A stretch of DNA of 64,000 nucleotides from assembly GCA_030220185.1 (NCBI GenBank), contig JASPKZ010007422.1, positions 310,001 through 374,000 on the forward strand, given 5' to 3'. Under the pieces are notes generated by a model. That model saw only the letters and a list, made by a program, of their open reading frames with translations, ran no database searches and was not told the origin of the DNA. Each line of letters begins with the position of its first letter. Position 1 is the first letter of the stretch. Source of the stretch: Diploptera punctata (lineage: Eukaryota; Arthropoda; Insecta; Blattodea; Blaberidae). A program made the translations under genes and the position numbers. Of the stretch, positions 22,051 through 60,840 are shown piece after piece.

Positions 22051-23217
22051 GATCATCAAAACAAAACCATGTGACCTGCTCGTTTTTGATTGGTTATGGA
22101 CACCTACGTACGATGTAAAAGCAGTAAGTACGCGAAAAAGTAGTTCCCTTCATTAAATTAAAAATATGTCCTCTGAATATACTTGTTATTCTCACTTACT
22201 TACTTACTCACTGGCACTATCGAACCCATAGGTTCATGGCCGCGCGGACATAAGATCTCCATACATCCCTATTCTGAGCTAATGCTTTCCAATCATTCCC
22301 TGTATAATCTACTTCCCTCAAATCATAGTTAATGTTATTCTCCCACCTCATTCTTGGTCTACCAATTGGGCGTTTCCCTCTGGCTTTCCTACAACAAGCT
22401 TCCATGCAAGTCTTTCATTCCCCATACGTGCAACATGTCCTGCCCATCGCAGTCTACGAGACTTAACTGTTCTTATTATGTCTGGCTTCCTATAAAGACC
22501 ATGTAGTTCATTGTTATGTAGTCTTCTCCATTCACCTGTCTCTTCATCTCTCTTTGGTCCAAAAATCCTCCTAAGTACTTTATTCTCAAATACTTGTAAT
22601 CTCCTTTCCTCCCTTAAAGTAAGAGTCCATGTTTCGCACCCATATAATGTAACTGGTAGAATAATAGTTTTATATATTTTCAGTTTAACGTTTTTTGAAA
22701 GGAGTTGGGACATCAAGAGTCTCTGCAATGCATAATAGCAAGCATTTCCAGAATTGAGCCTATGTTTAATTTCTTTGTGCATTCTCATTCCTATTTGTGA
22801 TTATTGTTCCTAGGTATTTGAATTCAGCCACTTCCTCAAAATTTCCCTCATTTGTCATTAGCTGTCCATTTCCATTATATAATACATTTCTACGTGTGAC
22901 CATATATTTAGTTTTATTGATATTTACTTCCAGTCCTAATTCCTTAGTGTTACTCAATAGTGTGTGCGTGTTGGCCTTTAGTATCTCCTCGCTATCGGCC
23001 AACAATACATCATCAGCATAAACTAACAGCTTATTAATACCATTGAGTTGTAAGCCTTCCTCATTCTCTAAAGATTTAATGGCATGCTCTAGTACAAAAT
23101 TAAACAGTAGAGGAGATCTCCTTGATTCAACCCATTCTGGATTTCAAAGTATCCGAAAACTTAATGTTGTGTGATTCCGGGTTCTGTGGCCGTGGTCCAT
23201 AGTTGGTGTTGATACCA

Positions 23218-23252
23218 GACGTTTCGCCCTCAACTGCGGAGGGCATCTTCAG
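23218..23252 (-). ncRNA. Hammerhead-ribozyme-like motif, left arm
   Basis: Mirror image of the motif at 23385-23427: CTGAAGA, a 6-bp stem II, then GAAACGTC, read on the minus strand. Confidence 0.65.
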
Positions 23253-23384
23253 TGGCGAGTGCTTCTAGGCGTGTTTCCTGGTCGGAAGATCTACTTAGAG
23301 TGAGCTCTGCTGACGTGATACCAGACGTCAGCAGAGCTCACTCTAAGTAGATCTTCCGACCAGGAAACACGCCTAGAAGCACTC

Positions 23385-23427
23385 GCCACTGAAGATGCCC
23401 TCCGCAGTTGAGGGCGAAACGTCTGGT
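23385..23427 (+). ncRNA. Hammerhead-ribozyme-like motif, right arm
   Basis: Stem I GCCA (23385-23388) pairs with TGGT (23424-23427). Core CTGAAGA at 23389-23395 fits the CUGANGA consensus. Stem II is GCCCTC (23397-23402) with GAGGGC (23410-23415), 7-nt loop. GAAA follows at 23416-23419, stem III is a minimal ACGT, and C23423 is the expected cleavage base. One unpaired T (23396) precedes stem II. The tiny stem III is typical of retroelement hammerheads that act as dimers. Activity is untested. Confidence 0.7.
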
Positions 23428-24470
23428 ATCAACACCAACTATGGACCACGGCCACAGAACCCGGAATCACACAACATTATGATTACCGGCCGTGAAAGCC
23501 TGCATTCAACTATCCGAAAACTGTTTGCCTACACGCACCCTACTCTTTGTGCCATTTAGAAACATTCGTATAAGTCTAACTAACTTTTTAGGAATTCCGA
23601 ACTCCAACAGGATACTATATAACTTCTCCCTTTTAATTGAATCATATGCTTTTTTGAAGTCTACATACAGTTGATGTACTGTACCATTATATTCCTATTT
23701 CTTTTCTAAAATCTGTCTTATACTAAAAATCTGATCTGTTGTAGACCTGTTTCTTCTAAATGCACATTGATGATCTCCTAGAATGTCATCAATATAGGGA
23801 GTAAGTCTGCTTACTAATATATTTGTTAGAATTTTGTACGAAGTTGAAAGTAATGAGATGCCCCTGTAGTTGTTGCAATCAGTTTTATCTCCTTTCTTAT
23901 AAATTGGTACGATAATTGATTCCTTCCATTCATCTGGAAGAGCTTCTTTTTCCCAAATCATACTAAGCAACCAGCGTATCTTGTCCATCAATTTTTCTCC
24001 CCCTGATTTTATCAGTTCTGCTGGGATCTCATCTGAACCTGATGCTTTATACATCTTCAATTTTTCAATCGCCATTTCAACATCTAATGCACTTGGCTCT
24101 GCAACTAACATTTCCGCCGTCTGTAAATTATCCTCCTCAATGTCCTGATCTGTATGTGCATTTAATAGGTGATTAAAGTAACTTTTCCATCTATTTAATA
24201 TACTCCTGGAATCTGCAATCATATCCCCATTTTCATTCCGAATTATGTTTGTTCTAGCCTGAAACCCTTTCTTCTCTATACTAATTCCCTGATATAATTC
24301 TCTAATGTACCTATTTTTTTGCATTCATTTCAAGTTCATTAATCTTCTCTCTCAAATATTCCCTCTTTTTACTCTTTAGTAACTTGGTGGTTTCCCGTCT
24401 AATACTACCAATTGCTCTAAATTTACCTCATTTGGCTCGTGTAGTCATTTCATTTTTGCTAGCTTTACTT

Positions 24471-33947: not shown

Positions 33948-34330
33948 TATGATGATCCTGAAGAAGATTTTCAGTAGAAAAGAAGAATCATTAAAAGTCA
34001 ACAAAGTATGGATACCGGTTCTAAAAAACGCAGAATGTAAACCTCTACAAGTACAGTCGACCAGACCATCAAACAGCAACCTCATTGGAACAATGGAAGT
34101 CCCTAACGCTGACCAATCAGAAGGCAGATATAACTTATGAACACGTCACAGTAAATGTATAAATAGGACAGACAGTGGACAGAATTGCCAGTCTCAAGAC
34201 AACCCTTGAGGATGCCAGATGCAGTCTCTGGCGAAACGTCGGGAAACTACAAGCCTCACGACCATGGCCTACAGCCCGAAAATCTTCTTCAAGATCATGA
34301 AAATAAAAACATTAAAAATACATAATTATA
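33948..34330 (+). mobile_element. Penelope-like 3' fragment with short inverted ends
   Basis: Short inverted ends (GATCCTGAAGAAGATTTTC near 33955 and its mirror near 34278-34297) bracket an open stretch that reads like a Penelope C-terminal tail. A hammerhead-like motif lies at 34203-34243. Confidence 0.55.
34203..34243 (+). ncRNA. Hammerhead-like motif (C3 changed)
   Basis: Stem I CCC/GGG, core TTGAGGA (consensus CTGANGA, first base changed), T, stem II GCCAGA/TCTGGC, GAAACGTC. The changed invariant C would be expected to cripple cleavage. Confidence 0.5.
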
Positions 34331-36516: not shown

Positions 36517-36750
36517 GTAAGCACAATGTAAAGTAAATTTCCCAAACACTAATATCATATCCCATTACTACTCTATACATGAAGGTGGTATTTATGTAAC
36601 TGATCAAATAGCATAGGCAATTCTTATGTATTTGAAAAGAAAAATATACTCAATCGAGTTGGTGTTTACTTGATGAAAATCCATATTTATTAATTAAATA
36701 AAAATAAAACGTAGTTTTATTTGATTTTCATATTTATTATATAATTCAGT

Positions 36751-36783
36751 GACAGCTGTTTCGGTACACTGTACCTTCTTCAG
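36751..36783 (-). ncRNA. Hammerhead-like motif, left arm of Penelope element
   Basis: Mirror of 37239-37275: CTGAAGA, stem II GGTAC/GTACC, GAAA, palindromic ACAGCTGT, C. Confidence 0.6.
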
Positions 36784-37238
36784 ACATCTTAACAAATTAT
36801 GAATTGTCTTCCAACTGATCTAAGCAACAATACAACAATATTTATTTAAATTTTTTAATTTAACAAAGTGTATATAAATTGAAGTGTGGCACATGTGACA
36901 ATGTCTATATAGGACAAACTGGTAGACCTTTTATCTCTCGGATAAAGGAACACATGAAAGCATATAACAGAAATTTAGAAAATTCAAAATATGCTAACCA
37001 CCTATTCCAATTTAATCATTGTTTCGATCCAAATTTTGAAATTTTACATATTTGTGATAAGGGTAAGAAGTTAGATCTTTTGGAGGCTGTAGAAATTAAT
37101 AAATTTAAAAGTAGTAAAAAACTGTTAAATTCTCAACTTGATTTGAATGAATTCCATTTGTTAAATTAAAAAATTTAAATAAATATTGTTGTATTGTTGC
37201 TTAGATCAGTTGGAAGACAATTCATAATTTGTTAAGAT

Positions 37239-37275
37239 GTCTGAAGAAGGTACAGTGTACCGAAACAGCTGTCAC
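37239..37275 (+). ncRNA. Hammerhead-like motif, right arm of Penelope element
   Basis: Core CTGAAGA at 37241-37247, one unpaired A, stem II GGTAC/GTACC with loop AGT, GAAA at 37262-37265, self-complementary stem III ACAGCTGT ending at 37272, C37273 at the cleavage position. Stem I is only two pairs (GT/AC). Confidence 0.6.
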
Positions 37276-37344
37276 TGAATTATATAATAAATATGAAAAT
37301 CAAATAAAACTACGTTATATTTTTATTTAATTAAGAAAAATGTA

Positions 37345-37508
37345 TGCCTAGACTGGGGTTTGAACCCAGGACCTTTGATTCTCTATGTCAGTGCTCTTCC
37401 ATCTGAGCTACCTAGGCCTACGCATTTAGATTGGAGGCCTAGGTAGCTCAGATGGAAGAGCATTGACATAGAGAGTCAAAGGTCCTGGGTTCAAACCCCA
37501 GTCTAGGT
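37345..37508. repeat. tRNA-like palindromic repeat, locus 3 (short form)
   Basis: Minus 37345-37419 and plus 37436-37508, only 16 bp apart. The plus copy: TAGCTCAGATGGAAGAGCAT, anticodon arm TTGAC-ATAGAGA-GTCAA (T33, triplet AGA), GGGTTCAAACCCC. Confidence 0.8.
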
Positions 37509-46584: not shown

Positions 46585-47990
46585 CATAATTAAATGAATC
46601 GTGATTTCTTCTTACCTCATACTTCTATGTTTTTTTAAACACAGCACTGCAGTATCAGCGACACGTTGTCGTCATCATCAGCTGTTTTCACGACTGTCAA
46701 TTTTTTTCCTTTTTGCCGGTAATTCTCTAGACTGCCATCTGGTGTTCTTTTGAAGGAATTACTCTTCAAACTGCCATCTGGTGTTATTTTGAATGAATCA
46801 TTTCCTAAACTGCTATCTGTTGTATTTTTGAAGAACTTTGTAATCAAGCTCAGTTCTTCCGGAATCTCATAGTTCTAGTATGGTTTTTTTGAATATATAT
46901 TTTTTCCCAAACTGTTAAATCCAAAGGTTTAGATAGATGTTTTAAAAGTTTTGCTTCTTTTTCAATCCTATGATGCTCTAATAAACTATGTGCTGCTATA
47001 GCTGATTTTTCAATTTCTCCAATCTTTATGTTTCTGAAGTGCTCTTTTTTACGAGTTTCCAAGTTCCTTTTTGTTTTTCCTATATATATCTTGTTGCAAT
47101 CTTTGCAATCAATTTGATAAATTCCAGATTTTTTGTTGTCTGGGGTATTACATTTATTATTAGTTGACAGCAGATTACCCAGGCTGAATTTGTTAATTGG
47201 AGGTAATGTTATATTAAATTTTCTGAAAATTTTTTGAAACTTATTATGAACTTCAGGATGGTAAGTGAATTTCTTGAATTTTACATCTTTCTTGGGACCA
47301 TGTAAGGTGGTGTATTCCTGTAACCTTTTTTGTTGTTTGAATTTCTTTAATTTATTCTTTATAATGTCTTCATCGAAACCATTTATTTTAGCAACATGAA
47401 CAATATGATTATATTCCTTGTCAAAATCTTCTACATTAAGTGGAATATTTAACAATCTGTGTAATAGACTATTGAAAATTGCATGTTTGTGTGTCAAATG
47501 ATTAAAACCTGAAGATTTTATGTAGTTGTCAGTATGTGTGTCTTTTCTGTAAATGTTAAATTCAATTTTTTGTTGTTGTTCATTTCTTATTAAGTATAAG
47601 TCTAAAAATGGGATCTTGTTATTTTGTTCCATTTCAATAGTGAATTTCACTGACTCATCTTGAAGATTAAGCAATTTCAATGCATCTTGAATGTATTTTT
47701 TATCAATTACAGCGATAATATCATCTACATATCTATACCAACACTTGAAAATCAAAGGATAAGCATTGGTGATATGTGATTCAAGATACCCCATAAATAA
47801 ATTGGCTAAAAATGGAGAAAGTGGATTTCCCATTGCCAATCCTGAAATTTGTTCAACTGCAAACTCAGCATTCTACACTCTTTCCTTTTTTGTATCCGCA
47901 TACAAACCATTTATTTTAATATTGTCTATCATCTGTTGTCTTTTTCTGCCTCTAATTTTCTTTCCGTTGACCTTCTAGGGCATTCGTCAG
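46585..47990 (-). mobile_element. Penelope-like element with reverse transcriptase and GIY-YIG endonuclease
   Basis: Best Penelope copy. The minus-strand frame (47839-46850, 329 codons) starts inside the RT: AMGNPLSPFLANLFMGYLES, then KCWYRYVDDIIAVID (catalytic YVDD), IPFLDLYLIR and the FNSLLHRLLNIPL region. Then come KKFTYHPEVHNKFQKIF, SGIYQIDCKDCNKIYIGKTK (CxxC plus GIY-YIG), EHFRNIKIGEIEKSAIAAH and LTVWEKIYIQKN. After a frameshift the tail (46847-46635) has three 13-residue repeats of the DGSLENxSFKRTP type. GIY-YIG after a telomerase-like RT is diagnostic of Penelope-like elements. 5' part missing; terminal repeat at 46585-46690. Confidence 0.88.
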
Positions 47991-50395: not shown

Positions 50396-50409
50396 AGAAG
50401 AATACAGTT

Positions 50410-50860
50410 ATATTTGAAGAGAAAAATTTTCGCCTAGACCGGGACTCGAACCCTGGACCCTTGGCTTTCCGGGCCAAGTGCTCTACCAACTGAGCTACCG
50501 AGGCGAGTTACGATCTAGACGCAAATTTTTCTCTTATGTATGTTGTAATAATAAAAATCGTCAATAGAAGCCCTACTGGCTATAAAGTAGTGTTAAATTC
50601 CCAATAAATGTCTTCTTAACTAAGAAGCCGCCATTTGCATAGATAGAAGCTATGTTTTCAAGCATTTGGTGCGAGGGAATTACAACATACATAAGAGAAA
50701 AATTTGCGTCTAGATCGTAACTCGCCTCGGTAGCTCAGTTGGTAGAGCACTTGGCCCGGAAAGCCAAGGGTCCCGGGTTCGAGTCCCGGTCTAGGCGAAA
50801 ATTTTTCTCTTCAAATATAATTTATCCTTCTATGAGAAGTGTTAAATTAATAATAAAAAT
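50410..50860. repeat. tRNA-like palindromic repeat, locus 9 (long form)
   Basis: Minus unit 50431-50505 and plus unit 50723-50797. The plus unit: CGCCTCGGTAGCTCAGTTGG, anticodon arm TTGGC-CCGGAAA-GCCAA, GGGTTCGAGTCCC, end GTCTAGGCG. Acceptor ends pair at 1-4 of 7 positions or better. Inner arms share the AAGAAGCCGCCATTTGCA block. Confidence 0.8.
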
Positions 50861-56245: not shown

Positions 56246-56281
56246 CTGATGATGGGGCTAAGAAGCTCTGAAACATATGTT
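56246..56281 (+). ncRNA. Hammerhead-ribozyme-like motif, core intact
   Basis: CTGATGA (56246-56252), T, stem II GGGGCT (56254-56259) with AGCTCT (56264-56269) around loop AAGA, GAAA (56270-56273), palindromic stem III ACATATGT, U56281 at the cleavage position. Stem I is possible as three wobble-rich pairs, an internal loop, and TTTTG/CAAAA. All invariant core bases present. Confidence 0.62.
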
Positions 56282-59589: not shown

Positions 59590-59722
59590 TTAAATTATTT
59601 TGAGTCTGTGAAATCTTACCTCAATATTAATGTTGATTTGTTTCGTTTAGTCTTCTATTCATCCTCAGCATCATGACCAGACTGGCCATCGAGATTTCAC
59701 AGACTCAAAATAATTTAATTCA
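59590..59722. repeat. Palindrome with CATCCTCAGC spacer (Penelope terminal-repeat type)
   Basis: Inverted ends AAATTATTTTGAGTCTGTGA and its mirror. The left arm extends into the CTTACCTCAATATTAATGTTG block shared with 39290 and 58610. Confidence 0.6.
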
Positions 59723-59744
59723 TAAGAATTAAATGAATAGTGAT

Positions 59745-60262
59745 TTCTTCTTACCTCATACTTATATGTTTTTTAAACACAGCACTGCAGTATCAGCGAC
59801 CATCGTCACCATTCTCAGCTGTTTTCATGACTGTCAATTTTTTCTTTTGCCGGTAATTATCCAAACTGCCATCTGGTGTTCTTTTGAAGGAATTATTTTC
59901 TAAACTGCCATCTGGTGTTCTTTTGAAGGAATCATTTTCTAAACTGCCATCTATTGTATTTTTTAAGAACTTTGTAATGAAGCTCGGTTCGTCTGGAATC
60001 TTGAAGTTCATGGTTCTAGTATGGTTATTTGAATGTATATCTTTTCCCAAACTGTTAAATCCAAAGGTTTGGATAGGATGTTTCAAAAGTTTTGCTTCTA
60101 TTTCAATTCTATGATGCTCTAATAAACTATGTGCTGCTATAGCTGATTTTTCAATTTCTCCATTCTTTATGTTTCTGAAGTGCTCTTTATTACGAGTTTT
60201 GAAGTTACTTTTTGTTTTTCCTATATATATCCTGTTGCAATCTTTGCAATCAATTTGATAAG
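59745..60262 (-). mobile_element. Penelope-like C-terminal part with tandem peptide repeats
   Basis: Minus strand: FLKNTIDGSLENDSFKRT, PDGSLENNSFKRTPDGSLDN (three 13-residue units), the TMNFKIPDEPSFITKF stretch before them and the GEIEKSAIAAH region further upstream. Terminal block at 59750-59830. Confidence 0.7.
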
Positions 60263-60475
60263 TTCTTCAAAAATACAACAGATGGCAGTTTAGAAAATGG
60301 TTCCTTTAAAAAAACACCAGATGGCAGTTTAGAAAATAATTCCTTCAAAAGAAAACCAGATGGCAGTTTGGATAATTACCACCAAAAGAAAAAATTGACA
60401 GTCATGAAAACAGCTGGGGATGGTGACAATGGTCGCCGATACCGCAGTGCTGTGTTTAAAAAAACATAGAAATAT
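60263..60475 (+). mobile_element. Penelope-like C-terminal tail, inverted neighbour
   Basis: Plus strand: FFKNTTDGSLENGSFKKT, PDGSLENNSFKRKPDGSLDN, then KKLTVMKTAGDGDNGR and a terminal block with CTGGGGATGGTGACAATGG. Head-to-tail mirror of the preceding fragment. Confidence 0.7.
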
Positions 60476-60479
60476 GATT

Positions 60480-60840
60480 TAATTCTTATCTTTGTATTTA
60501 ATTACACTGGTCGATAAGGTTTTCTTCACAAGAAATCTGATTAGTGAATCCAGTGCATTTTTTCATTCTGAATTCAGATATGTAGTCAGAATGTTTCCAT
60601 CAGGCACAGTTTTTTTGTGATAGCTACTTTTTAAAAATTGATTTTAGCATTCTCTTTGACCTGTCATAGGAACCTTTACCTTATATGTAGCAATTTTATT
60701 CAAGCTGTATGTAAGGAAATTATATGCAATGTCGTGCTGAACCACCAAAAGACAAGACTGTGTTATTTGTGCGAATGGGACAGCAGAGATAAGAAGTCTT
60801 ACTACGTTAGAAAATCATGACCTAAACTTGAATCTCTTAT
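60480..60840. other. Intron m-n, unassigned
   Basis: No gene or sibling repeat recognised. Confidence 0.35.

Follow-up and report, generated by a model that had tools for sequence, protein, structure and literature searches.

The window analysed here, a stretch of 64,000 nucleotides from Diploptera punctata, carries a 349-bp insert (23162-23510) that probably represents a young RT/GIY-YIG Penelope-like retrotransposon inserted with extreme 5' truncation, by two-ended priming and joining. That the insert is a Penelope-like element (PLE) is close to certain. The origin of the odd direct and inverted repeats of PLEs has been an open question, and the excerpted text of an in vitro PLE study describes the steps after reverse transcription as yet to be validated (PMC11167929). 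The family found here is young, with many near-identical insertions, outer ends on two RT start sites and length-matched arms, and such insertions make two-ended priming and fold-back directly testable against each other. It also gives reason for caution, as a hairpin unit with hammerheads can turn out to be a truncated PLE and not a new ribozyme element.

The insert is bounded by a 12-bp target-site duplication (TSD), TATCCGAAAACT, found in exact form at 23150-23161 and 23511-23522, as the initial annotation had reported. The left arm (23162-23316, minus strand) is an antisense cDNA copy of the PLE 3' end that begins at RT start site 1 and has no tail. It matches the reverse complement of 23325-23479 with 0 mismatches. 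That second stretch is the right arm (plus strand), a sense copy of the PLE 3' end, or pseudo-LTR (pLTR), delimited by the palindrome and by the family copies. The near-perfect palindrome described between the duplications was thus found, with arms of 155 bp and a centre of 8 nt in place of the 152 bp and 10 nt first given. The centre, GATACCAG (23317-23324), is read as templated filler at the joint. The sense end alone carries a 31-nt tail (23480-23510, plus strand), running from site 1 to site 2, which was absent from the earlier description. A hairpin with an AC-rich loop, AAUCA-CACAACAUUA-UGAUU, was predicted at 23465-23484 on the plus strand with pair probabilities of 0.85-1.0 in four contexts. 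The left arm begins at the 3' edge of this loop (23479), which is site 1, and the same outer end was found across the family. Counted from the A of an ATG in stem II of the hammerhead-like motif described below, the AC-rich loop lies at 76-85 nt and the end of the tail at 116 nt. The flanks are a decayed LINE, with an RVT_1 score in the ORF at 23695-24324. Its frame had been called otherwise continuous, which is too strong, since the RT-like translation crosses the insertion site in differing frames: with the insert removed, it changes frame near the junction (judged by eye).

A search of the genome (3.12 Gb) with the arm, as proposed in the initial annotation, gave at least 42 matches, at least 40 of them at 100% over 160 bp, from 40 scored out of 765 candidates. 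The 160-nt query by which the loci were picked reaches 5 nt into the tail, and with 40 of 765 scored, tail-less and older copies are therefore under-sampled. The copies are many, with differing flanks and duplications of their own, in agreement with a mobile insertion. A second, opposed arm was found in 26 of the 30 loci that were cut (19 of 20 refetched at 8-10 kb and 7 of the 10 others). Among the unpaired loci, L040 is a plain sense copy of 323 nt, in L030 a second arm was absent within 1.1 kb and L027 extends past the end of its locus. Of 27 paired inserts, the window included, 26 are flanked by direct repeats of 9-19 bp; these lengths are upper bounds, as bases shared with the element are counted in. 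The duplication of L032 falls in a TTA repeat, and L033 was the sole paired insert without a duplication of 9-19 bp. L033, an older copy with a tailed inverted arm (88%) and a poor fit, was excluded ahead of the arm analysis, which reduced the set from 27 to 26. L026 is also head-to-head and is absent from the count of 27. The arms were head-to-head in all 26 analysed pairs. The sense (right) end carried a tail of 30-31 nt ending at site 2 in every one of them, and the antisense (left) end was complete at site 1 in 23 and within about 5 nt of it in the other three. Insert lengths ranged from 349 to 3,767 bp among the 27 paired inserts, and the longer copies carry RT-endonuclease ORF sequence within both arms.

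Frame 0 of the arm reads ...TSAELTLSRSSDQETRLEALATEDALRS* and runs on in one longer copy, L045, as a 594-aa open frame with a Pfam RVT_1 score of 1.9e-15. Pfam reported no GIY-YIG in this frame at E<=0.01. In BLASTP the frame aligned to P0122, an RT/GIY-YIG PLE protein of Allacma fusca (32% over 579 aa, E 5e-82), with an alignment that spans the RT and GIY-YIG regions. It also aligned to the window's own PLE ORF at 46850-47839, which does score GIY-YIG, and the PLE protein matches include one from Diploptera punctata. As the arm frame opens into an RT-endonuclease PLE ORF in L045, the arm is the 3' end of a PLE and is not, as had been suggested, coding-free. Each arm holds the C-terminal codons and stop of this ORF, overlapping the hammerhead-like motif. 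In the right arm these are the last 28 codons and the stop (...EALATEDALRS*; 23325-23411, plus strand), in frame with the 594-aa frame of L045, and they are mirrored at 23230-23316 on the minus strand, with the stop within hammerhead loop II. The proposed link to Penelope was therefore borne out, and the RT of the element is the obvious agent of insertion. The features by which PLEs are recognized were all found, namely RT and GIY-YIG in one ORF in the longer copies, inverted pLTRs with a tail on one of them (optional in PLEs, where it measures 30-40 nt) and a duplication of variable length.

Stem II of the motif also contains an ATG followed by 38 open codons inside the insert (23395-23508, plus strand), a possible ORF start. 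A similar ATG start at 34212 differs by 7 synonymous and 13 non-synonymous codon changes over 26 aligned codons. It belongs to a lone PLE-type hammerhead/ATG start of a related family at 34200-34290 (MPDAVSGETSG...). The ATG frame was rejected as the N-terminus of known PLE proteins, with the motif in none of 63 long PLE proteins and no database candidate. It is the C-terminal frame of the arm that was found to encode PLE protein.

The two arms of an insert tend to be of near-equal length. They differed by at most 44 nt in 22 of 26 inserts, while the maximum under permutation was 11 (0 of 100,000 permutations); lengths were BLAST coordinates against L045, and those of L045 itself were set by halving its palindrome. 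Clearly unequal arms were found in four (L034, L042, L043, L049), the tail-less arm being the shorter in two. Where the arms differed by 11-44 nt, the left, tail-less arm was the longer in nine of nine (two-sided 0.004). Six inserts (L031, L044, L048, L022, L025, L029) are exact loop-free palindromes of 512-1226 bp; in the other inserts the longest exact palindrome is short and local because loops, fillers or arm differences break the match. The arms of one insert were also more alike than expected, with 1.03 substitutions per kb as compared to 3.25 for chance pairings (16 of 20,000 permutations, counted over 25 elements with L037 excluded; 88 of 20,000 when L046 was left out). Private variants were present in both arms in L046 (11) and L044 (2), and in a single arm in 12 cases. 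Eleven of these 12 sit in the tail-less arm (the left arms of L042, L046, L045, L039, L032 and L043), ten of them outside the 160-nt stretch used for locus selection, and this excess perhaps reflects error-prone or later synthesis of that arm.

The centre of the window copy, with its flanks (23316-23328), repeats 13 nt from the 3' end of the antisense hammerhead (23210-23222). None of 20,000 random spacers gave a 12-nt copy of this sort. In 29 of 30 fetched copies TACAACGTCCACA adjoins the sense arm (L030 departs in the last base), which means that GATACCAG is not native at this place. A search with the whole insert found eight places besides the window that match nearly end to end. The seven pLTR-only copies that we examined are 337-364 bp long (five at 337-343 bp), and each has its own 13-16 bp duplication. 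The comparison of centres covered L051-L056, L024 and the window, with C7301 and C8572 left out. Seven distinct centres were found among these eight palindromes. L052, L054, L056, L055 and L024 have 3, 0, 6, 19 and 23 extra bases, respectively, or different arm ends, and the window has 8; L051 and L053 have in common a blunt joint of ACGT to ACGT, with duplications that differ. Given the seven distinct centres and the separate duplications, most or all of the copies would have been made anew, apparently by extreme truncation in independent events. Native palindromes were not enriched at the joints (at least 4 nt in 4 of 12, background 0.34), and joining at native palindromes was for this reason ruled out as a rule.

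From the anatomy and duplications, the two outer ends, the near-equal arms across the family, the PLE ORF in the longer copies and the excess similarity of the arms, we infer priming from both strands, the order of events and the mode of joining. The PLE enzyme would make a staggered cut in the target, with a stagger of 12 bp in the window. The 3' end of one target strand would prime copying of the PLE RNA at site 1, giving the tail-less antisense arm, and priming by the other strand at site 2, which lies 31 nt to the 3' side, would yield the tailed arm. Both cDNAs would halt at nearly one place, 155 nt past site 1 in the window, and the self-complementary ACGT would then serve to join their ends, with 8 nt of filler copied at the joint from the hammerhead region. 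For this filler, the ...ACGT end of one cDNA would anneal to the ACGT in the hammerhead region of the other and be extended by 8 nt, a route that resembles microhomology-mediated end joining. The outer ends at two start sites indicate that both arms began as reverse transcription, and the near-equal arms with shared variants indicate that the arms stopped together and either share a template or were copied one from the other. Two-ended target-primed reverse transcription with joining agrees with the tails, with the filler and with the palindromes that have no loop. A more specific version, possible but tentative, is that such PLEs integrate as a pair, in which two RT subunits, each extending one of the target strands, travel along one RNA in single file, the site-1 subunit leading and the site-2 subunit trailing. 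The cDNA ends would lie near each other when synthesis halts and would be joined by microhomology with occasional templated filler. If this is true, the head-to-head palindrome would be the normal product and the classical 'inverted pLTR' its unequal-arm form.

Some of these observations are also expected from a fold-back route, which we find unlikely. Here one target end would prime a cDNA whose 3' end snaps back and copies itself into the second arm, the other target end giving only the tail and the outer part. Near-equal arms would be automatic, and to this extent they count against two-ended joining. A hairpin loop would leave the left arm longer by 11-44 nt, as seen in nine of nine, a bias that is not expected if two cDNAs are simply joined. 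For rotifers, the available text of PMC3846280 reads the junction palindromes of inverted PLEs as self-priming on an antisense template. However, the tail stands on the second arm and not on the first, so the outer end of the second arm must derive from RNA. Exact loop-free palindromes of 512-1226 bp would be hard to self-prime without a loop, and the very unequal arms of four of the 26 inserts, two with the tail-less arm shorter, fit fold-back poorly. The same four also count against two-ended priming and joining, as do the unpaired loci L040, L030 and L027, the misfit L033 and the lack of enrichment of native palindromes at the joints. A single RNA end in common was considered as the only cause of equal arms and was set aside, as it is inseparable from the single-file and fold-back readings.

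The initial annotation had inferred a separate non-autonomous, ribozyme-processed family consisting of paired terminal repeats only. The eight near end-to-end matches to the 349-bp insert favour such a family, and non-autonomous hammerhead retrozymes are known in animals (PMC7229834, as excerpted). Internal junctions in common, which it would be expected to have, were found in L051 and L053 only. One of these two could have been copied from the other, and their shared centre gives slightly more weight to a non-autonomous family and slightly less to two-ended priming, but a blunt joint at a native ACGT could also recur. Seven distinct centres among eight mean that most copies are not descended from one another, and the differing centres largely refute this reading. 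Retrozymes are moreover direct tandem repeats, whereas these inserts are head-to-head. A distinct kind consisting solely of terminal repeats is also unsupported, the unit lying at the short end of a continuum of 337-3,767 bp that includes ORF-bearing copies. Altogether we hold a non-autonomous family to be very improbable. Missed adaptors or chimaeric reads can create long inverted repeats, and the palindromes could in principle be sequencing or assembly artefacts. There is next to no chance of this, as the flanks on the two sides differ, the palindrome lies between direct repeats, just one side has a tail and some variants occur in a single arm. Extreme truncation with two-ended priming and joining is the reading that we prefer.

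Each arm contains a minimal hammerhead-like motif, CTGAAGA-U-GCCCTC-(7)-GAGGGC-GAAACGTC, on opposite strands. The motif lies at 23389-23423 on the plus strand, with a predicted cut after C23423, and at 23218-23252 on the minus strand in the left arm, with a predicted cut after plus-strand coordinate 23218. It was characterised by motif scans and folding. The GCCA/TGGT stem I, the 6-bp stem II and GAAACGTC were confirmed in both arms, in line with the core first described. Helix III consists of nothing beyond the palindrome ACGT, and one extra U (the U of AUG) stands between A9 and stem II. The excerpted text of PMC3088659 gives the conserved core of the hammerhead as CUGANGA...GAAA...UH with paired stems adjoining; as compared to this definition the core and stems are present, yet the motif has the extra U, lacks an Rfam match and is a minority fold. 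The covariance-model search that had been suggested matched no Rfam hammerhead family, neither at gathering cut-offs nor at E<=10. Strong Rfam scores for microRNA precursors were below the gathering scores of those families and merely reflect the long hairpin, and this identity was rejected. A strict descriptor, composed only once the motif had been seen and hence post hoc, matched twice in the window and never in 200 windows simulated with a first-order Markov model. With a looser scan, 8 matches were obtained in the window as compared to 9 in 100 simulated windows. Besides the two arms, they include a related start at 34206, with equal stem and loop sizes, the same extra U and a T as first core base, a mirrored pair at 36783/37241 flanking a GIY-YIG-like fragment, and sites at 56246, 39353 and 38902.

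In the isolated 69-mer the hammerhead fold was predicted to be a minority state (pair probabilities of 0.005 for stem I and 0.067 for stem II), another fold being favoured (-18.0 kcal/mol, as compared to -13.8 kcal/mol when the two stems form). When the entire insert is transcribed, the predicted structure is a 155-bp hairpin between the two arms (-340.7 kcal/mol), which is predicted to outcompete the ribozyme fold and would hide the motif. Of 52 cDNAs, 51 extend beyond the hammerhead cut and one (the left arm of L049, L049:4681-5053) stops at it. As 51 of 52 pass the cut site, ribozyme processing of the template, as implied in the initial annotation, is unsupported. Judged from the sequence, the motif in the window insert would be carried along passively with the 3' end of the PLE.

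The general plan of these inserts is largely known from rotifers. In the available text of PMC3846280, endonuclease-containing Penelope elements of Adineta vaga (Pen2a_Av and others) have inverted pLTRs, mostly head-to-head. An optional 31-bp tail on one inverted pLTR, TSDs (8-10 bp in the rotifer), junction palindromes and insertion into another retrotransposon are likewise shared with those elements. In the rotifer examples described there, however, the pLTRs enclose captured DNA or all or part of an ORF, whereas the arms here are near-equal copies of one 3' stretch (22 of 26), down to the pLTR alone. No pointer to near-equal-arm PLE palindromes was found among the titles and abstract openings seen on PLE inversions, tails and palindromes. 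Poseidon from Anolis (PAc) was studied by in vitro assay. As excerpted, that work found both target strands to be cleaved and extended, the 'tail' to span the interval from one RT start site to another, and insertion to be unaffected in hammerhead mutants (PMC11167929). As in PAc, the hammerhead here overlaps an ATG in stem II and an AC-rich stem loop lies at an RT start. The hammerhead cut falls 26 nt after the ATG in PAc and 29 nt here, and the PAc RT start at 111-118 nt into the ORF compares with the tail end at 116 here. The AC-rich loop, which in PAc is at 111-118, lies at 76-85 (site 1) in our insert, so the two do not align one to one (PMC11167929, excerpt). According to the parts of PMC6155905 and PMC7761336 at hand, minimal type I hammerheads in the pLTRs of PLEs and Terminons are also without helix III, like the motif in our pLTR, but are in tandem and may act as dimers; the motifs here are opposed and on different strands. 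Metazoan retrozymes resemble the insert in being small, hammerhead-bearing and perhaps moved by PLE enzymes; in the excerpt of PMC7229834 they are tandem repeats in direct orientation, with type I hammerheads of canonical form and with circular RNAs. By contrast, all 26 pairs here are head-to-head, carry ORF sequence and lack direct tandem repeats.

Additionally, the window contains a second PLE family insert of the same one-tailed plan at 59713-60485, which supports two-ended priming and joining as the best reading. It is flanked by a 9-bp TSD (ATTTAATTC), and its head-to-head arms hold hammerhead-like motifs that have decayed, with a tail of about 35 nt on one arm only and an endonuclease-end ORF between the arms; its boundaries, in AT-rich sequence, were judged by eye. 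Pattern scans of viral contigs and genome contigs and a PLE locus scan returned nothing. At 36679-37345 two head-to-head arms of 189 nt (98%) carry CTGAAGAAG...GAAACAGC motifs and enclose a GIY-YIG-like fragment, and this pair ends at a tRNA-model match (37345-37417). Seventeen tRNA-model matches (Rfam) were found in total, confined to the right half of the window (33582-61565), and they are perhaps tRNA-derived SINEs or a tRNA cluster. Inverted repeats of 154 bp, 97% alike and 130 bp apart, were also found at 50396-50549 and 50679-50831.
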